A model generated the notes under the pieces. It was not told where the DNA came from. It saw only the letters and a program-made list of their open reading frames with translations, and did no database searches. The position numbers were made by a program, and so were the translations under genes. Source: an uncultured Acidobacteriia bacterium (GTDB taxonomy: Bacteria > Acidobacteriota > Terriglobia > Bryobacterales > Bryobacteraceae). Taken from it: a DNA stretch of 64,000 bases. Positions 28,634-38,826 of this stretch are shown one piece after another. Position 1 is the stretch's first letter; every line of letters starts with the position of its first letter. Location: the NCBI GenBank assembly GCA_903875575.1, contig CAIQWJ010000029.1, forward strand, positions 1 through 64,000, in the 5' to 3' direction.

Positions 28634-29686
28634 CTAGTTTCCGAGGTATCTGGAATAGACACTTCTGGCTATGCCGGGATCGGTAGTGCCTTTGATAATG
28701 GCGCGACCGTCCGGGAAAACAGTCAATTCGTACTGGAGATCCTGAAAGCGCAGAGCAAACTCGTTCGCTCGCACAGTGCCCAGACCCGCCAGGCTGCCGG
28801 CAAGCGCCACAAGGTCGACTGGCCGCCTCCGCTCGTGAATCTGTACCGCATTGCGGCCGCATAAACTGACTGGCGCACGGTTGGTGCTGGTCAGGCAGAC
28901 AAACTCGCGCCGCCCACAGGTCGGGCAATCGATATTACGCGATGGCATCGAAACCTCCCGTACCGGCCCTGCCCACAAGTCCGCCGTAAAGATCTTCCGC
29001 CGCACACTTCCTGTACGTCCCGCCAGAATTTTGATCGCTTCCATCGCCTGAACAGATCCAATCACGCTCGTCACGGGGCCCAGAACGCCGGCCGTTTCGC
29101 ATGTCGGTTGGGCACCAGCGGGTGGCTCAGGGTAGACGCAACGGAAGCAGGCTGAATCCCCAGGCAGGACGGGCATCGCGATACCATAGGCCGAAACGGC
29201 CGCGCCGTAGATCCAGGGAACCCCGTCGCGCACCGCAAAATCGTTGATCAGCAGGCGGGTTTCGAAATTATCCGTGCCATCGAGGATAACGTCGGCACCT
29301 CCGAGCAATTCCTCAACATTCCCCGCATCCAGATCTGAAATGTGGGCCTCTATGGCGATGTTCGAATTCGCCGCGAGCAGATGGCGACGCGCCGCCTCCG
29401 CCTTAGGCAGAGCGACTTCGGCGTCGGCCTCCGTGTACAGCACCTGGCGCTGCAGGTTGCTGACTTCCACGTAATCGCGATCCACAAGGCGCAAAGTACC
29501 CACGCCGGCTCGGGCCAGGAGCCCGGCCTGAACCGTTCCGAGGGCGCCGCATCCGACGACCACTGCGGTGGCGCGGCCCAGGCGCTCCTGCCCTTCCGGA
29601 CCCAGAGGGGAGAATCGGGTCTGTCTGCTGTAACGATTGTTGTGGGGTTCGCTCACTGTTTGCAGACGGATGGCGTCTGGCGACAT
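28634..29686 (-). CDS. HesA/MoeB/ThiF family E1-like adenylyltransferase
   Basis: RYSRQTRFSPLGPEGQERLGRATAVVVGCGALGTVQAGLLARAGVGTLRLVDRDYVEVSNLQRQVLY, CxxC pair (DCPTCGRREFVCL). Confidence 0.92.
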   Translation of the reverse strand: MSPDAIRLQTVSEPHNNRYSRQTRFSPLGPEGQERLGRATAVVVGCGALGTVQAGLLARAGVGTLRLVDRDYVEVSNLQRQVLYTEADAEVALPKAEAARRHLLAANSNIAIEAHISDLDAGNVEELLGGADVILDGTDNFETRLLINDFAVRDGVPWIYGAAVSAYGIAMPVLPGDSACFRCVYPEPPAGAQPTCETAGVLGPVTSVIGSVQAMEAIKILAGRTGSVRRKIFTADLWAGPVREVSMPSRNIDCPTCGRREFVCLTSTNRAPVSLCGRNAVQIHERRRPVDLVALAGSLAGLGTVRANEFALRFQDLQYELTVFPDGRAIIKGTTDPGIARSVYSRYLGN

Positions 29687-29766
29687 CGTAACAGATAGTC
29701 AGGGATTGTTGTAAATAAACGGCAACGCCATCAACATAGGGCATTTCCATTGGTAGTATGGAACTG

Positions 29767-32700
29767 GTGCGGAGTCTGTGTTTTACGAGCTTTTTAGCTA
29801 TTTGTCTGCTCGGTCCCGCCGCTAACGCGGAGCCTCAAGCCGTAACACGTGTGCCCGTGGCGACAAGCCAGGCTGCGGCGGCAAATGGCGCATCGCTGGA
29901 CGGCCTGACCATCGCACATCTGACGTTCGAACCCGCAGAGCAACCGCTGGAGGCGTCCGTCCTGTTCGACCTGCTGCCTTTCCGCGTCGGCGGTACATTT
30001 CGCGCCGCGTTAACGCGGGATGCGATCCAGAGACTTTACGCGACTGGCCGTTACGCGGATATTCAGATCGATGCCGAGCCATCTGGTGCCGGTGTACCCG
30101 GTACGGGTTCCGGCGTAGACCTTCGGATTGTTACGAAGGGCAGTTGGTTCTTCGGGCATGTCGAGATTCAGGGCGACGTTTCCGAACCACCCAACGCCGG
30201 CCAGATCCTGAGCGTGACCGGCATCACGCTTGGCCAACCGTTTGACGTCGGGGATATTGCAGCAGCCGAAGAGAAGATCCGTCAGTTGCTGATCAACAAC
30301 GGCTACTTTCTTCCGTCGATCTCCCACCGCATTGACTATGAGAACGCGGATCAACAGGTGCGCGTGACCTTTGAGCTAAGAGTCGGCCGCCGGGCTCATT
30401 ACGCGCTGCCGGTGATTACGGGCGACACATCCGTTCTCAGCGCACGGGCGATCGACAGGGTGACCGATTGGCACCGGTTTCTGATGCCAGGCTATCGCGG
30501 CATTACTCAGACGCGCACGAGAGTCGGTATCGACAAGATCCGGCTCGCCTACCAGAAGTCCAACCGATTACTGGCGACCGTGACGTTCTCCGGCATCGAT
30601 CAGGCGGGTGGCGACGGGAAGGGCAAGGGCCGCACGCCACTGGGAACGGCACGAATTGAAGTAACGCCTGGACCGGTCGTCGATGTGAAGGCAACCGGAG
30701 CCAAAGTGTCCCGGAAGGATCTGACTCAGAATCTGCCCATTTTTGAAGAAGGCGCTGTGGATGCTGACCTGCTGGCAGAGGGGAAGACAAATCTCCGCAA
30801 CTATTTTCAGGAGCAGGGCTATTTTGATGTGGAGGTAGAGTTCAGCCGCCGGGATGTAAATGGCAGCAAGACGGAGATTGAGTATGCAGTCAAACCCGGG
30901 CAGCGGCATCGAATGGTCAGCCTCGCGATCCGTGGCAACAGGTACTTCGATGAAAAAACGCTCCGGGAGCGAATGCTGGTGTTACCGAAATCGTTCGAGT
31001 TCCGCCGGGGACGGTACAGCGAGAGCATGGCTGCCCGGGATAAGGCGGTAATAGAAGAACTCTACCGTTCAAATGGCTTCCGTGACGTCCACGTACTCAT
31101 CGAGACACAGGATGACTACAGGATGGTGAAAGGCGATATCGCGGCCGTCTTTACCATTACAGAAGGCGAGCAATACCGGGTGGCATCCCTCACCGTCGCG
31201 GGTGCAGAGAAGCTGGATCTCTCAACAACAACTGACCGATTAACGTCGCAGGCGGGGCAGCCATTCAGCGAGGCCGATGTAGCGTCTGACCGGGAAACGA
31301 TACTAAATGCGTACGGCGCGGCCGGGTATTCAGATGCTGCTTTTGAATGGACGTGGGCTCAAGGTCCCGCACCCTTCACTGTTGCGCTGAAATTCACGAT
31401 CCGTGAGGGAGCCCCGCAGTTCGTCCGCGACGTTATTGTGACGGGTCTCTCGACCACGCGCAGTTCGCTGGCCTATGCGCAGGTGAAAGAGAGGCCAGGG
31501 GATCCTCTTTCGGCCACAGCGATGGCGGAAACGCAGCGGCGATTATACGATCTGGGAATTTTTTCTCAGGTCAACATGGCAGTGCAGAATCCGGACGGGG
31601 AAGAGACACGCCGCCGGGTTCTGTACGATCTTCAGGAAGCATCACGCTACTCTTTCACCGCCGGTCTTGGCACGGAGTTCGGACGCATAGGCACCGGCAC
31701 TACGTCGTCCGATCTTTCAAATCCCGGCGGTTCGGCAACCCTGACGCCCCGCGTTTCTTTGGGGCTGACACGCCTGAATCTTCTGGGGCTGGGCCAGTCG
31801 CTTGGCATCCAGCTGCGGCTCTCCACGGTGCAAAAGCGCGGCTCGATCAACTACTTCGTGCCCAGGGTTTTCAACCGAGCGCGTTTTGACGGGAACTTTA
31901 CCATCCTCTATGACGACACTTACGACGTGAACACGTTTCGAGCCATTCGCCGGGAAGTTTCGGCGCAGGTGTCAGAGCGCATTTCGAAAACGCTGACCGC
32001 TTTCTATCGCCTCTCGTACCGTGATGTCGGCGTATCCGAACTCAGAATCTCGCCCTATCTGGTTCCGCGGCTGGCTCAATCCGCACGGGTGGGAATCGGG
32101 TCATTCAACGTGGTGCATGACCGCCGGGACGATCCCATCGATCCTCACAAGGGAATCTACAGTACGCTTGACGTTGGTGTGGCCACGAAGGCTCTGGGTT
32201 CGCAGACCAACTTTGTCCGGCTACTGGGACGCAATTCGACGTACTACAGTCTGGGGCCGAAACTGGTACTGGCGCGTGAAACACAGTTCGGCGTGGAGAA
32301 GGCGTTCCGGGCGACGGTGTCGACCGATTTTTCGGATCCCATCCCCCTGCCCGAAAGATTCTACGGTGGCGGTGGAACCACTATGCGCGGTTTCCCGCAA
32401 AACCAGGCCGGCCCCCGAGATCCGTCCACAGGGTTTCCGATCGGCGGCTCCGCACTCTTTTTCAACAGTACCGAATTGCGCTTCCCCCTCTACGGCACAA
32501 ATATTCGCGGAGTATTTTTTGAGGACATGGGTAACGTGTTTTCGACGATCGGCAATATGTCGCTCCGGTTCAATCAGAATGGCCTTGGGGATTTTGACTA
32601 CATGACGCACGCAGCGGGGTTCGGCCTGCGCTACAGAACACCACTGGGCCCTCTGCGCTTCGATCTTTCCTATGGTCTGAATCCGCCTAAATACAACGGG

Positions 32701-32829
32701 TTTACGGGCGACTATTCCCAACTGGTGCAGTGTACGCAGCCAGGCACGCCGGCAACCGGAGTCTGCCAGCCGTCGGTGCAGCAGATCAGCCACATTCAGT
32801 TCTTTTTTTCCATCGGGCAGGCCTTCTGA
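29767..32829 (+). CDS. Omp85/BamA-TamA family outer membrane assembly protein with POTRA repeats
   Basis: Several POTRA-like repeats and a C-terminal surface-antigen barrel (YGGGGTTMRGFPQNQAGPRD, GLRYRTPLGPLRFDLSYGLNP). Start is ATG 29758 or GTG 29767; the ATG overlaps a TAGTAT box. Confidence 0.9.
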   Translation: MRSLCFTSFLAICLLGPAANAEPQAVTRVPVATSQAAAANGASLDGLTIAHLTFEPAEQPLEASVLFDLLPFRVGGTFRAALTRDAIQRLYATGRYADIQIDAEPSGAGVPGTGSGVDLRIVTKGSWFFGHVEIQGDVSEPPNAGQILSVTGITLGQPFDVGDIAAAEEKIRQLLINNGYFLPSISHRIDYENADQQVRVTFELRVGRRAHYALPVITGDTSVLSARAIDRVTDWHRFLMPGYRGITQTRTRVGIDKIRLAYQKSNRLLATVTFSGIDQAGGDGKGKGRTPLGTARIEVTPGPVVDVKATGAKVSRKDLTQNLPIFEEGAVDADLLAEGKTNLRNYFQEQGYFDVEVEFSRRDVNGSKTEIEYAVKPGQRHRMVSLAIRGNRYFDEKTLRERMLVLPKSFEFRRGRYSESMAARDKAVIEELYRSNGFRDVHVLIETQDDYRMVKGDIAAVFTITEGEQYRVASLTVAGAEKLDLSTTTDRLTSQAGQPFSEADVASDRETILNAYGAAGYSDAAFEWTWAQGPAPFTVALKFTIREGAPQFVRDVIVTGLSTTRSSLAYAQVKERPGDPLSATAMAETQRRLYDLGIFSQVNMAVQNPDGEETRRRVLYDLQEASRYSFTAGLGTEFGRIGTGTTSSDLSNPGGSATLTPRVSLGLTRLNLLGLGQSLGIQLRLSTVQKRGSINYFVPRVFNRARFDGNFTILYDDTYDVNTFRAIRREVSAQVSERISKTLTAFYRLSYRDVGVSELRISPYLVPRLAQSARVGIGSFNVVHDRRDDPIDPHKGIYSTLDVGVATKALGSQTNFVRLLGRNSTYYSLGPKLVLARETQFGVEKAFRATVSTDFSDPIPLPERFYGGGGTTMRGFPQNQAGPRDPSTGFPIGGSALFFNSTELRFPLYGTNIRGVFFEDMGNVFSTIGNMSLRFNQNGLGDFDYMTHAAGFGLRYRTPLGPLRFDLSYGLNPPKYNGFTGDYSQLVQCTQPGTPATGVCQPSVQQISHIQFFFSIGQAF

Positions 32830-33521
32830 TGACTCGCACATTCTCATTCATGATGTGTGGACTGCTCGCGTGGAGCGCCACGCCAGCGAGCGCCGCACTG
32901 GTGGATCGGGTGGCCATTACGGTGGGAAACAAGGTCATCACGGAAAGCGAGATTGTCCGGCGAATCCGGCTCGCTGCATTTCAGAACGGGCTGCAGCCGG
33001 ACTATGGTCTGGCGGCACGCCGGGAAGCGGCCAGGAGTCTGATTGATCTGAAGATGGTGGAGCGGGAGATGGACCTCGGTCACTATCCCCGCACGGAGCC
33101 GGAGCGGGAGATGGACCTCGGTCACTATCCCCGCACGGAGCCGGAGCGGGCGAAAACGCTGCTGGCCGCGTTTACCGCTGAGCATTTTCGCTCCAGTCCG
33201 GAGGCTTTGCGGATGGCGCTGGCCGGAAGTTCCCTCGCATCCGCCGATCTTATGGAAGAACTCGCCGAGCAAAACGATCTGACTTCATTTCTCGACCTGC
33301 GCTTCCGTCCCTCGGTGCAGATTTCCGACGCCGAAATCGAAAAGTATTTTCACGAGAACATTGAGTCAAAGAATCCCGTCCCGCCCGTGGAATTGAGCGA
33401 TGTCCGGACCGGCATCGAGCAGATTCTGGCCGCACACCGTGCGGATCAGGATCTGGACGCGTGGCTGCAGGACCAAAAGAAGCGGACGAAAATTGTTTAC
33501 GTGGTGGAGGACCTGCAGTGA
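32829..33521 (+). CDS. SurA-N-like periplasmic chaperone without a recognisable PPIase domain
   Basis: VDRVAITVGNKVITESEIVRRIRLAAFQNG...RREAARSLIDLKMVEREM resembles SurA N-terminus; ATGA overlap with the upstream Omp85 gene. Confidence 0.75.
   Translation: MTRTFSFMMCGLLAWSATPASAALVDRVAITVGNKVITESEIVRRIRLAAFQNGLQPDYGLAARREAARSLIDLKMVEREMDLGHYPRTEPEREMDLGHYPRTEPERAKTLLAAFTAEHFRSSPEALRMALAGSSLASADLMEELAEQNDLTSFLDLRFRPSVQISDAEIEKYFHENIESKNPVPPVELSDVRTGIEQILAAHRADQDLDAWLQDQKKRTKIVYVVEDLQ
33060..33150 (+). repeat. Perfect in-frame 42-bp tandem duplication plus 7-bp partial third copy
   Basis: (GAGCGGGAGATGGACCTCGGTCACTATCCCCGCACGGAGCCG)x2 then GAGCGGG; encodes (EREMDLGHYPRTEP)x2. Confidence 0.98.
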
Positions 33522-36500
33522 ACCGCCGCCTGAAAATTGGACTCGCAGTCTTCGCGTCCCTGGTAATTCTGGTGCTGGTGACCGGCTGCGCGGCGCTTTT
33601 CGTCGCGCAGAGCGACTGGCTTCGTGAGAAGCTCCGCGCCGCCATCGTGGAGCAGGCGGAAACGGCTACCGGAGGACGGGTTGAGATCGCAAAGTTTCAA
33701 CTCAACTGGAGCAGCCTGAACGCTGAGGTGGACGGTCTTGTTATCCACGGCACGGAAGCGCCGAGCCAGGCCCCGTTTCTCGCCGTGGACCATGTAACCA
33801 TAGGCCTCCGGATCGTCTCCCTCTTCACACGCGATATTCGTCTGGAGAAACTCACCGTCACGCGCCCACGAGCGCATATCATCATCGACGCGGCTGGCGG
33901 CACCAATCTGCCGCGCCCGAAAACAACCTCAAACGCACGTACGGCAGACACCATCCTCAATCTGAAGATCGCGCACGTTGCGGTGCGGGACGGAACAGCG
34001 CTGGCTGAATCGCCAGGCAATCCGCCGCATACTTATCCATGGAGTGGCGGCGGGCGGAATCTCGCTCTTTTGGCCACCTATGACCCCGCGCGCGATCGCT
34101 ACGCGGGCGACGTCTCGTTTGCTCCGCTGCATCTGACGCTCGAAGGGTATGGTCCGCTGGATGTGGACCTGACGGCGACGGCAGCCATGGAGCGGAATCG
34201 AGTGTTCGTACAGAAGGCCACACTGAAGAGCCAGGGCTCGGAAATCGACCTCAGCGAGATCAATATCGGGAGCTTCGCCGACCCCGTAGTGACCGCGCAT
34301 TATGGTGTAACAGTCTCGGCGGCGGAGGCAGCGCGGGTGCTGCACTGGAAGCTTCCTATATCGGGCACGGTAAACGTGGCGGGCAATGCGCGATACGTGT
34401 CACCGGAGGATTTCGAACTTGCAGGGGATCTCCGCGGCACCGGACTTGCCTATGGCAAGGTTCGCAACATCCGACTGACAGGAAAGGTCGCGGGTTCGCA
34501 GGCCAAAATGGCGATCACCTCGTTGCGGGCGAGTCTGCTGGGCGGCACCGCCGTTGGCGGCGTGGAGACAAAAGGCTATGAGGTTTACCGGATCGCCGGT
34601 ACCATCGCAGGCCTCGACGCGCGAAACCTCGCGGCACTGGGCACCACACAAACCGTTCCTTACGATGGCGTGCTGGCAGGCACGGTGGCCGCCACCGGGA
34701 GATTTCGCGATACCTCGCGTTTCGACGATGCCACCGCGCACCTGACGATCGGGCCCGCCGCAATCGGCCCCACCGCTCATGGAGAGCTATCAGTACATTA
34801 CACCGGCTCGACTTCAAAACTCGAAGTGTCCAATTCGTGGCTTCAACTGCCCAATACCCGCCTGGATGTGAGCGGAACACTTGGTGCCGCACAGACCATA
34901 TCGCGGGCTTCCTCGCGGTCCACATCGCTGGCTGTCAAACTCGACACCAACGACCTCAACGATCTTCTCCCTGTGATGAGCGGGCAGGCTCTGCCTTTCA
35001 CTCTGCGAAACGGTTCGGCGTCATTCGCCGGAACTGTAAGCGGCACTCTCGACGACCCTCGCGTGGAAGGCCACGTCACCCTGAACCACGCCGTCTACGA
35101 TAACCGCCTTGTGGATTCAGTCACCGGAGATGTCACTGCATCGGCTACGCAGGCGACCACCACCCACGCCACTCTGGTCTATGACGGCATCACCGCGAGC
35201 GTTGCTGGCACAATCACACTCACGAACTGGTCCGCAGACAAAAAGTCAGCCGTTTCGGGCGATGTGACGATCGGGAACGTGGATCTGGTGCACGCCCTGA
35301 CACTATCGGGACTGGAAAAAGACGTGCCTGCAACCGGCACTGTATCGGTAAGCGCGAAGGTATCCGGAACGGTCGGACAGCCGGCGGGAAGCGCCGACGT
35401 CACGTTCAGCAAAGGCTTGTTTTACCAGCAGCCGTACGACTCCATCACCAGTCATCTGCAGTACACCAATGCGGATCTGCAAACCGCCAGCGGCGTCTTC
35501 ACTTCCGGCCCGAAGCGAGTCACCTTCGACATTCGTTACCCGCACAACGGCCAGACGTTCCCCGCCGGCTCGCTGGAAATCTCGGCAGCCAGCAATACGA
35601 TGGCGCTCAACCAGATTGCGCTATTGCGGCAGCGGCAACCGGATATTCAGGGCACTGCACAGTTTCAGGGAAAGTCGACCGTGCGCGTCTCCGTTGACGC
35701 ACAGAAGACCGCCCACTTCGAATTGACGAGCCTGAACGGCGATGGCACCGCCACGGGTATCGGACTTGCCGGGCGCGAACTGGGCAATTCACATTTCTCC
35801 GCCCGAACACAGGCCGGCACATTGACCGCCGACTTTGATTCCAACGTGGCAAATGCCGCCATCAAAGGACAGGCGCGAGTGGAACTGACGGGTGACGACC
35901 GGACAACGGGTTCCATTTCCCTGTCCAACGCAAACGTCGGCGCTGTGGCCGCCCTGCTGTCAAGCGGCGACGATGCAAAGAAATTCGCGTTCGATGGCTC
36001 GGTGGAGGCGCAGGTGGATTTCAGCGGCCCGCTTTTCCTCCCGGCGCAGATGACGGCAACAGCCACGGTGCGGCAACTCGAGGTACATCCAACTGCAGGC
36101 TCGCCTCTTGCGAAGGCGATCGCCGGATTCAGCCTTCGCAGCAGCGGGCAGGTAAAAGTCTCCTACGAGAAGTCGGTGATCCGGGTGGATTCTGCGCACT
36201 TTCTGGCACCGGAAACAGACATGACCATCAGCGGTACTGCAGATACTTTGAGTGCGACCCCGTTGAATCTGCGCCTGCAGGGCGACGTCAATCTCGCCAT
36301 CCTGCGGAACTTCGTGCCGGATCTGGTGGCGTCGGGAACAGTCTCCGTCGCAGGCCTGGTTCGGGGAAGCTGGGGCACTCCCGATTTCAGCGGGCGCGCA
36401 GGTATTCGCAATGGCGAATTCCACTATCCGGATTTCGCCAATGGTTTGAGCAACGCGACAGGCTCCGTCGTGTTCTCGGGTTCGCGGGCCACCATTGAAT

Positions 36501-37558
36501 CCTTCAATGCCGAGACCGGCGGGGGTAAGCTCACAGGCGCAGGCTTCGCTAATCTGATTCCGGATACCGGCGAAGTTGCTTTTCAGTTCTCGGCAAGGAC
36601 GAAGGACGTTCGTCTGCGCTATCCGCAGGGGGTGAGTTCCATATCAGACTCTGAACTCCAGTTGGTACGCAATCCGCAGCGGAGCAGTATTTCGGGGACC
36701 GTAACAGTGCGCAGATTAGTGTTCAACCCCCAGCAGGACGCCGCCGGGATGTTAGCGGATATGAGCCAGAGCGCGCGTACTCCGGCAGCCGGCAGCAATT
36801 CGCTGGCGAACATGAACCTGGATATCCTCATCCAGACCGCGCCCGATGTAGCGCTGCAATCCAAGGTAGCGGAGAGTATTCAGGCCGACGCGTCACTGCG
36901 ACTGCGCGGCACTGTCGCGAGCCCCGCACTGCTGGGAAGGGTGAACGTTTCCCAGGGGGAAGTGCTCTTCTTCGGCAACAAGTACACCATCAGCCGAGGG
37001 GCAATTTCCTTCTTCAATCCGTCGAAGATCGATCCGATTCTCGATGTGGATCTTCAGACAAAGGCGCGCGGGGTCGATGTAACACTCACGGTCACAGGTT
37101 CACCTTCGAACCTGGGAATGACCTACAGGTCTGACCCGCCGCTGGAGTTTTCGGACATTGTCGCTTTGCTGGCCACTGGCCGAACGCCGGACGATCCCTC
37201 GGTCGCCCTGCGCGGCAATGCGCCGACACCGAGCTTTGAGCAACTGGGGGCCTCGGCACTAATCGGCCAAACGCTGGCGAACCCTGTTGCTGGACGTCTG
37301 CAGCGATTCTTCGGCGTCAGCCGGATCAAGATCGATCCGCAGCTATCGGGTGTTGGCGGCAATCCCGGCGCGCGGCTCACGGTGGAGCAGCAGGTGACTC
37401 CGGATATTCTGTTTACTTACATCACGGACGTATCGAATACCAGTCAGCAGTTGATTCGGGTGGAATGGGCGTTCAATCGCAACTGGTCCGCCGTGCTGGA
37501 GCGCGAACAGAACGGCTACGTCGGGCTGGACTTCACTTATAAGAAGCGGTTCAAGTAG
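33518..37558 (+). CDS. TamB-like (translocation/assembly module) protein
   Basis: N-terminal TM anchor and AsmA-like region; long repetitive beta-rich body; C-terminal LDVDLQTKARGVDVTLTVTGSPSNLGMTYRSDPPLEFSDIVALLATGR typical of TamB. GTG start overlaps the upstream TGA. Confidence 0.9.
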   Translation: MNRRLKIGLAVFASLVILVLVTGCAALFVAQSDWLREKLRAAIVEQAETATGGRVEIAKFQLNWSSLNAEVDGLVIHGTEAPSQAPFLAVDHVTIGLRIVSLFTRDIRLEKLTVTRPRAHIIIDAAGGTNLPRPKTTSNARTADTILNLKIAHVAVRDGTALAESPGNPPHTYPWSGGGRNLALLATYDPARDRYAGDVSFAPLHLTLEGYGPLDVDLTATAAMERNRVFVQKATLKSQGSEIDLSEINIGSFADPVVTAHYGVTVSAAEAARVLHWKLPISGTVNVAGNARYVSPEDFELAGDLRGTGLAYGKVRNIRLTGKVAGSQAKMAITSLRASLLGGTAVGGVETKGYEVYRIAGTIAGLDARNLAALGTTQTVPYDGVLAGTVAATGRFRDTSRFDDATAHLTIGPAAIGPTAHGELSVHYTGSTSKLEVSNSWLQLPNTRLDVSGTLGAAQTISRASSRSTSLAVKLDTNDLNDLLPVMSGQALPFTLRNGSASFAGTVSGTLDDPRVEGHVTLNHAVYDNRLVDSVTGDVTASATQATTTHATLVYDGITASVAGTITLTNWSADKKSAVSGDVTIGNVDLVHALTLSGLEKDVPATGTVSVSAKVSGTVGQPAGSADVTFSKGLFYQQPYDSITSHLQYTNADLQTASGVFTSGPKRVTFDIRYPHNGQTFPAGSLEISAASNTMALNQIALLRQRQPDIQGTAQFQGKSTVRVSVDAQKTAHFELTSLNGDGTATGIGLAGRELGNSHFSARTQAGTLTADFDSNVANAAIKGQARVELTGDDRTTGSISLSNANVGAVAALLSSGDDAKKFAFDGSVEAQVDFSGPLFLPAQMTATATVRQLEVHPTAGSPLAKAIAGFSLRSSGQVKVSYEKSVIRVDSAHFLAPETDMTISGTADTLSATPLNLRLQGDVNLAILRNFVPDLVASGTVSVAGLVRGSWGTPDFSGRAGIRNGEFHYPDFANGLSNATGSVVFSGSRATIESFNAETGGGKLTGAGFANLIPDTGEVAFQFSARTKDVRLRYPQGVSSISDSELQLVRNPQRSSISGTVTVRRLVFNPQQDAAGMLADMSQSARTPAAGSNSLANMNLDILIQTAPDVALQSKVAESIQADASLRLRGTVASPALLGRVNVSQGEVLFFGNKYTISRGAISFFNPSKIDPILDVDLQTKARGVDVTLTVTGSPSNLGMTYRSDPPLEFSDIVALLATGRTPDDPSVALRGNAPTPSFEQLGASALIGQTLANPVAGRLQRFFGVSRIKIDPQLSGVGGNPGARLTVEQQVTPDILFTYITDVSNTSQQLIRVEWAFNRNWSAVLEREQNGYVGLDFTYKKRFK

Positions 37559-37566
37559 CCGAGGCT

Positions 37567-38826
37567 TCAGCCCTTCAGATAGCCCCTGAACTTATCCACG
37601 CTGCCCGGATAACCCGGAAACACCTTACCGATCTGTTTGTTCCCCAGATGGTTGAAGACGGCCTCGCTTAGCACGTCGCGAAAATCCGTTGTCAGCGCCA
37701 GATCGCGCTTTTCATAGAGTTGCTCCGGCGCAAGCCCCGGCCATTGCCCGTACACTTTACCGCCCTGCACCGGGCCGCCCATCACGAACATCGCGTTGGC
37801 GTGGCCGTGATCCGTACCGCGGTCGCCGTTCTCTTTCGCCGTGCGTCCAAACTCCGACATCGTCACAACGACCACGTCTTCCATGCGGTCGCCCAGATCC
37901 TTGTAGAACGCCGCGAGCCCGCCGCCGAACTCCGTGAGTCGCTGGGCCAACTGACCCACCGAGGCCTTCGGGCCAACTTCCTGCGCATGGTGATCCCAGC
38001 CTCCCAGATCTGCGAACGCGACTTCCACGCCCACGTTGGACTTAATCAACTGGGCAATCTGCCGCATGCTGTCGCCGAAACGGCCGCCTGGGTACTGCGC
38101 ACCGCCCGCGGGCTGATACGGGGTCTTCTGAACAGATTGCAGCAATGCCACGGCGTCAAATGTCGCGCGACCAGTGCCATTCAGAATCTGATCGCCCGAG
38201 CCCGCGTACATCGCTTCCAACGCTTTGGCTGCGGCCGCGTCGCGAACACCGAACGCACCCAGGCTCTCCACCGCAACGGCTTCGTTATCGCCGCGCATAC
38301 TGCGTGGCAGGGTGGGTCCCAGACTGACCGCGCGCACGGGCGAGGGTTTGCCCTCGGCGGGCGGCAACGCGCGATTGAGCCACCCATCGTTGGTCGCCTT
38401 GAGACCGGGCGTGCCGGACTCCATGTAATCCTGCGCATCAAAGTGAGAGCGAGTGGGGTCAGGCGAACCGGCCGCGTGGACAATCGCCAGTTGCCGACTG
38501 TCCCACAGCGGCTTGAGCGGAGCGAGCGACGGATGCAGGCCGAACATGCCATCGAGGTCGATGACAGCGTCTTCCTTCGCGATGTTCTCCGCCGGACGAG
38601 GGATGGAAATCGTGGGGCGCAGATCGTAGTAGTGCTGTTCGCCGTGCGGCACCACAATATTGAGGCCGTCGGCCGCGCCCCGCTGGAAGATCGCAACCAG
38701 AACCTTCTTTCGCTGACCACTGTTACTCTGCGCGAACGCCGCCCGCTGCAGCCAGAGCGGCGAGGTTCCGACGCCAACCATGGCGATAGCGGAATCTCTC
38801 AGAAATATACGTCGTGAAACCGGCAT
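37567..38826 (-). CDS. DUF1501 domain-containing protein
   Basis: RRIFLRDSAIAMVGVG, RKKVLVAIFQRGAADGLNIVVPHG, VVVTMSEFGRTAKENGDRGTDHGHANAMFVMG. Confidence 0.92.
   Translation of the reverse strand: MPVSRRIFLRDSAIAMVGVGTSPLWLQRAAFAQSNSGQRKKVLVAIFQRGAADGLNIVVPHGEQHYYDLRPTISIPRPAENIAKEDAVIDLDGMFGLHPSLAPLKPLWDSRQLAIVHAAGSPDPTRSHFDAQDYMESGTPGLKATNDGWLNRALPPAEGKPSPVRAVSLGPTLPRSMRGDNEAVAVESLGAFGVRDAAAAKALEAMYAGSGDQILNGTGRATFDAVALLQSVQKTPYQPAGGAQYPGGRFGDSMRQIAQLIKSNVGVEVAFADLGGWDHHAQEVGPKASVGQLAQRLTEFGGGLAAFYKDLGDRMEDVVVVTMSEFGRTAKENGDRGTDHGHANAMFVMGGPVQGGKVYGQWPGLAPEQLYEKRDLALTTDFRDVLSEAVFNHLGNKQIGKVFPGYPGSVDKFRGYLKG

Follow-up and report, generated by a model that had tools for sequence, protein, structure and literature searches.

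In Proteobacteria, the translocation and assembly module (TAM) consists of two proteins that are encoded together, namely TamA, an Omp85 protein with three POTRA domains, and TamB, which links the inner membrane to this outer-membrane partner. The DUF490 domain of TamB binds POTRAs (PMC11361582) and its last strand pairs with TamA to form a hybrid barrel (PMC12800296); two reports implicate TamB, together with YhdP and YdbH, in phospholipid transport (PMC8593681, PMC8912898). TamB also pairs with BamA-type Omp85 proteins, both in Borrelia (PMC13382580, PMC11361582), for which a comparable hybrid model exists (PMC13382580), and in the Acidobacteria, where Heinz et al. reported an operon of an extra, seven-POTRA BamA and TamB in 2015 (PMC4494059). 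Here we describe such a locus in a 64,000-nucleotide stretch of DNA from an uncultured Acidobacteriia bacterium of the Bryobacteraceae (contig CAIQWJ010000029.1, positions 1 to 64,000; hereafter the window), in which a third gene, encoding a short SurA-like periplasmic protein that we call mini-SurA, lies between omp85 and tamB. The recurrence of this trio across the phylum suggests a TAM relative with its own built-in chaperone, and we put at about even the chance that the three proteins form a TAM-like trans-envelope machine in which a dedicated SurA, free of peptidyl-prolyl isomerase (PPIase) domains, docks on the Omp85 POTRAs.

The trio resembles TAM in coupling an Omp85 protein to TamB, but its Omp85 is a BamA-type protein with seven POTRAs and a core-only SurA gene is added. 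The Borrelia hybrid differs in that its BamA is the only one in the cell, has five POTRAs, is encoded in the order TamB-BamA and is joined in the described complex by BamB/BamD instead of SurA. The Acidobacteria operon has the same extra BamA and the same BamA-TamB order, and the window's Omp85 is the duplicated seven-POTRA protein of that report, the text of which leaves the middle gene unmentioned, with zero occurrences of SurA, chaperone or isomerase (PMC4494059). A literature search outside subscription papers found no prior report of an Acidobacteria mini-SurA; as far as the literature covered shows, the Omp85-TamB pair has been known since 2015 and only the chaperone component is new. 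The original prediction, which set the locus apart from classical TamAB by its dedicated chaperone, is supported as regards the mini-SurA gene but had not recognised the barrel as a second seven-POTRA BamA whose operon with TamB was already described. Periplasmic chaperone genes also adjoin Omp85 genes in bamA-skp pairs, but Skp is unrelated to SurA and, here, such a pair belongs to the canonical BamA. Mini-SurA shares its fold of N-domain plus C-terminal helix, and its docking-strand region, with E. coli SurA and the artificial SurA core; unlike natural SurA, with its one or two PPIase domains, mini-SurA has none, and it is the natural counterpart of that artificial core. The E. coli core alone binds the β-barrel assembly machinery (BAM), retains much chaperone function and complements surA loss for membrane sensitivity (PMC11366764, PMC2556385).

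Three overlapping genes and their products

The three genes lie on the plus strand, as do all of their features given below: omp85 at 29758-32829, the mini-SurA gene at 32829-33521 and tamB at 33518-37558. At the first junction (32827-32831) the Omp85 stop TGA (32827-32829) and the mini-SurA start ATG (32829-32831) have a single base in common; the predicted overlap at 32829 is therefore present, but as TGATG and not as a shared ATGA. At the second (33518-33521) the TamB start GTG (33518-33520) overlaps the mini-SurA stop TGA (33519-33521) as GTGA, just as had been foreseen. The operon consists of exactly three genes: Pfam assigns its upstream neighbour (28634-29686), which is divergent, to the ThiF family and its downstream neighbour (37567-38826), which is convergent, to DUF1501. 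A simple promoter and terminator scan of the locus gave no signal exceeding chance. The identities originally proposed for the three products also hold, with Omp85, POTRA and TamB recognised by Pfam and SurA by a family profile and its predicted fold.

Mini-SurA (230 residues) comprises a signal peptide, a SurA N-domain and a C-terminal helix and strand, without a PPIase domain. Single-sequence searches of Pfam, NCBIfam and the PDB returned no reliable match, and none over a Pfam or NCBIfam cut-off. The family profile (41 relatives) matches the E. coli SurA N-domain (E 4.6e-11), with a separate weak match of its last 35 residues to the SurA C-terminal helix. In the AlphaFold (AF2) model, the N-domain and the C-terminal part are both confident (predicted local distance difference test score, pLDDT, 89.8), and the top Foldseek ranks are taken by SurA in BAM-SurA complexes (9hg9_F and 8pzv_F; TM-score 0.57-0.58 on the query), so that profile, model and structure search all recover the SurA core fold. 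The C-terminal core helix and strand (residues 189-224; 33393-33500), were identified by alignment, profile and AF2; a short linker, at the site of SurA's PPIase domains, connects them to the N-domain. Neither the model nor Pfam reveals a Rotamase domain of the parvulin type, the relatives are all short and no trio member leaves room for such a domain in its mini-SurA; the PPIase domain is thus missing throughout the family and was not lost in this genome alone. A local truncation or pseudogene was considered and rejected, the short form being common to all syntenic relatives examined and the ratio of non-synonymous to synonymous substitutions (dN/dS) lying well below 1. PPIase-bearing SurA/PpiC/PpiD proteins are encoded elsewhere in the genome.

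The SurA_N family PF09312, to which we take IPR015391 to correspond, gave no match to the window's protein; the best of seven members scored individually reached 22.6 bits against a cut-off of 30.8, and the best E-value among the 41 members was 7.9e-6. In a 2024 survey of IPR015391, core-only SurA made up 73 of 14,244 entries, 49 of them from Halomonas (PMC11401910). As the family model of that survey does not reach the mini-SurAs, they qualify the view that a PPIase domain is nearly always retained in SurA homologues.

At the predicted mature N-terminus, ALVDRVAI (32892-32915) aligns with the strand of E. coli SurA, residues 23-28, that β-augments BamA POTRA1 (PMC11366764), and within the mini-SurA family alignment Asp26 is the sole invariant column. 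The window's copy also carries a perfect 42-bp tandem duplication (33059-33150; 14 residues, EREMDLGHYPRTEP), detected by Tandem Repeats Finder and in the alignment, which is in frame, recent, unique to this mini-SurA among its relatives and modelled at low confidence.

The Omp85 protein (1023 residues) has a signal sequence, seven POTRAs, a 16-strand barrel and a C-terminal GQAF. It matches PF01103 (149.7 bits) and the POTRA family PF07244 (142 bits), passes the BamA model TIGR03303 (333.8 bits against a cut-off of 297.15) and falls far under the cut-off of 625 for the TamA model (85.8 bits), to which its seven POTRAs, in place of the three of TamA, also do not conform. Its AF2 model (mean pLDDT 81.7), for which the best PDB matches are BamA structures, contains seven β-α-α-β-β POTRA units (29908-31638; residues 51-128, 131-208, 219-303, 307-379, 385-468, 474-549 and 555-627), six of which Pfam detects, and a barrel of about 16 strands (31648-32826) with the RGF motif in GGGTTMRGFP. 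A higher-scoring canonical BamA (418 bits) is encoded on contig C74 of the same genome, adjoining two OmpH/Skp genes; the window's Omp85 is therefore a duplicated BamA, and the idea that it is the sole BamA of the cell was rejected. Nor, with seven POTRAs instead of five, does it have the domain count of a canonical housekeeping BamA. Separately, the genome encodes an Omp85 protein (L091:5657-7915) whose N-terminus looks patatin-like by eye (GGGALALAHVGLIEWL), as in PlpD.

TamB, the only one in the genome (one match in a genome scan), is 1346 residues long from its GTG start and scores over the cut-off of PF04357 (124.9 bits), with weak DUF748/YhdP/AsmA matches. It displays the hallmarks of the family: an N-terminal membrane anchor visible in the sequence, an AsmA/YhdP-like start, a long β region and a C-terminal DUF490 domain (36503-37552; residues 996-1345), which is expected to engage Omp85. 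An aromatic residue at the extreme C-terminus is enriched in the family without being strictly required (PMC4494059). Most trio TamBs, including the window's (37541-37555; also L032-L074), finish in RFK or RFR, with Phe one residue before the end, and so lack a terminal aromatic.

Conservation and history of the trio

Sixty relatives were sampled along with the window's own genome, making a set of 61 genomes, and 42 class-level loci were examined, the window's included. Omp85, mini-SurA and TamB occur in the same order and on the same strand in all 42, and they recur elsewhere in the phylum, which upholds the expectation that relatives would keep the SurA-like gene beside omp85 and tamB. In 41 of the 42 loci the distance from the Omp85 stop to the mini-SurA start is between -4 and +5 nt (28 loci have the identical TGATG overlap), and the TamB start overlaps the mini-SurA stop as NTGA in 38; junctions as tight as these far exceed chance. 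A single mini-SurA protein finds a match in 58 of the 61 genomes. Among the others, G058 has the trio, found by profile search; G034 is only 62% complete, and one of its short contigs holds part of a TamB gene; and in G060, at 98% completeness, TamB and mini-SurA are both absent. For the closest pair, dN/dS is 0.12 for mini-SurA, 0.03 for Omp85 and 0.06 for TamB (more distant pairs are saturated), and the three genes are under purifying selection. One family member, at L045, has about 3.5 kb of other genes between mini-SurA and TamB (L045:4141-7690).

Beyond the class, the profile has matches in 188 of 199 Acidobacteriota genomes, partly to PPIase-type SurA matched on the N-domain only. We counted from TamB as an unbiased anchor (a first TamB scan of the genome contigs had yielded only four loci). 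Among 101 TamB-bearing genomes from 48 family groups, 39 genomes from 21 groups have a mini-SurA within 12 kb of TamB, in every case on its strand. These are minimum values, since at contig ends several mini-SurAs adjoin omp85. A trio universal to the phylum is rejected by the same count. TamB is upstream in 27 of the linked genomes and downstream in 12. All 11 class members within this TamB-centred sample have the window's gene order; outside the class the three genes remain together but reordered as TamB-Omp85-miniSurA. In the mini-SurA tree a single branch separates the copies with the window's order from all others, and copies without linkage fall within groups of linked copies, so the linkage looks old, with several losses.

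Second-type complete trios with a longer TamB (approximately 1,500-1,650 residues) were found at L049, L053, L058, L061, L063 and L064, and in five genomes the first trio is present as well, giving two whole trios. The second-type copies form one group in both the Omp85 tree (support 83) and the TamB tree (support 100), which suggests that the trio was probably duplicated as a unit.

Possible roles of mini-SurA

In our working model, for which we infer a docking site, a chaperone activity, its clients and a division of labour, TamB would be anchored in the inner membrane and span the periplasm, and its DUF490 end would engage the outer-membrane partner, the Omp85 protein with seven POTRAs. Mini-SurA would be produced in step with its partners by way of the overlapping genes and then exported, whereupon its N-terminal strand would dock on a distal POTRA of its own Omp85, by analogy with the SurA core on POTRA1 of BamA. 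Once docked, it may keep clients ready for insertion, either outer-membrane proteins that are still unfolded or the C-terminal strands of TamB, and general traffic would be handled by the canonical BamA, its Skp proteins and the PPIase-type SurA/PpiD. Of the original proposal that chaperone, bridge and barrel make up one co-translated module, the gene trio and its synteny stand, whereas the terms chaperone, module and co-translated are readings of homology, synteny and gene overlap.

That mini-SurA is a true third TAM subunit, which dropped its PPIase domains in evolution and uses the POTRAs of its own Omp85 as its docking site, is a tentative proposal to which we give somewhat less than an even chance. 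If this holds, a TAM-type system with a chaperone of its own would be described for the first time, as would a clade-wide family of core-only SurA proteins tied to a single machine. A 2024 in vitro study raised the possibility that chaperones deliver clients to TamA via a POTRA, much as SurA does on BamA (PMC11341756), and this operon, in which a minimal SurA has stayed with Omp85-TamB through rearrangement and duplication, offers a natural test system for client delivery to TAM.

Several observations count against our working model. The conservation of Asp26 and the docking strand is consistent with POTRA docking, but both also belong to the general SurA_N fold and are therefore no specific proof of it. 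In vitro, TAM-mediated assembly was not altered by E. coli SurA (PMC11341756), and a general SurA effect is therefore not to be assumed. In many Acidobacteriota, TamB and Omp85 share an operon or are fused with no mini-SurA nearby, which implies that mini-SurA is not required for TAM function in general. Finally, there are about 18 loci at which mini-SurA lies away from omp85 and tamB (including L109, L123, L124, L127, L128, L130, L133, L139-L141, L143, L147, L148, L151, L159 and L160). The neighbours of such solitary copies include an HrcA-like gene (L109, L124) and, nearby, MurA-like and repeat-protein genes (L127, L128, L130, L139).

The one-to-one coupling of mini-SurA to its partners, and its co-duplication with them, would also suit a fixed structural subunit, such as a POTRA clamp that replaces accessory proteins like BamB/BamD and carries no clients. 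The lost PPIase domains aid client handling in E. coli (PMC11401910), and in L047, L052 and L074 the linker before the C-terminal helix is shortened too, both of which fit such a role. However, the full core fold, including the client-binding N-domain of SurA, is kept at high model confidence, and the solitary copies have no Omp85 or TamB neighbours; we regard this alternative as unlikely, although by no means negligible. A private assembly factor, guarding its own Omp85 barrel or the TamB C-terminal strands and serving no wider clients, would account for a gene that sits between omp85 and tamB with overlapping starts, and each of the second trios does carry its own mini-SurA. Solitary mini-SurAs in several families speak against it, and we consider it distinctly improbable.

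It is also conceivable that mini-SurA is simply a neighbour in the operon, an envelope protein of the SurA_N family whose co-transcription serves regulation only and which has no physical tie to the other two. BamA is commonly found beside Skp in other bacteria, the canonical BamA of the window's genome likewise adjoins Skp genes, and on several occasions members of the mini-SurA family have become unlinked. Yet elsewhere the genes have stayed linked after being reordered and after the unit was duplicated, and we give this reading very little weight. A functionless, decayed remnant of a PPIase-type SurA, as a short protein under the Pfam cut-offs with a 42-bp duplication in the window's copy might suggest, is scarcely credible and already contradicted by a dN/dS well below 1, conserved core positions, a confident fold and phylum-wide retention.

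Fusions and neighbouring genes

Acidobacteriota TamB genes longer than approximately 2,000 codons proved to be single open frames encoding TamB and then Omp85 in all 20 cases examined. These fusions (L193:3782-11068, L201:3696-10901 and L214-L231) come from 16 family groups and span about 2,040-2,430 residues. In the 2401-residue protein of L201, TamB occupies residues 1070-1424, followed by seven POTRA stretches and an Omp85 barrel at 2067-2374. There are two kinds: those of L193 and L201 have seven POTRAs and most others have fewer; for most fusions the match of the Omp85 part to the profile starts later by two POTRAs. None was seen to have a mini-SurA beside it, and our literature search, with the coverage given above, found no prior report of such fusions. 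Each fusion is expected to form one chain reaching from the inner to the outer membrane. Their occurrence in the phylum lends support to the pairing of TamB with Omp85 and, together with the operon, indirectly to a physical complex of the two. They would provide a one-chain TAM, which would be helpful for structural work.

A few Acidobacteriota families have a further arrangement, in which TamB stands beside an Omp85 protein of TamA-like size whose match to the profile is confined to the later part, with about three POTRAs (L196, L197, L198 and L199). The ThiF/E1-like gene that lies divergently upstream of the window's trio is retained at 27 related loci and, at 52-83% identity, is kept into other families of the order and class.

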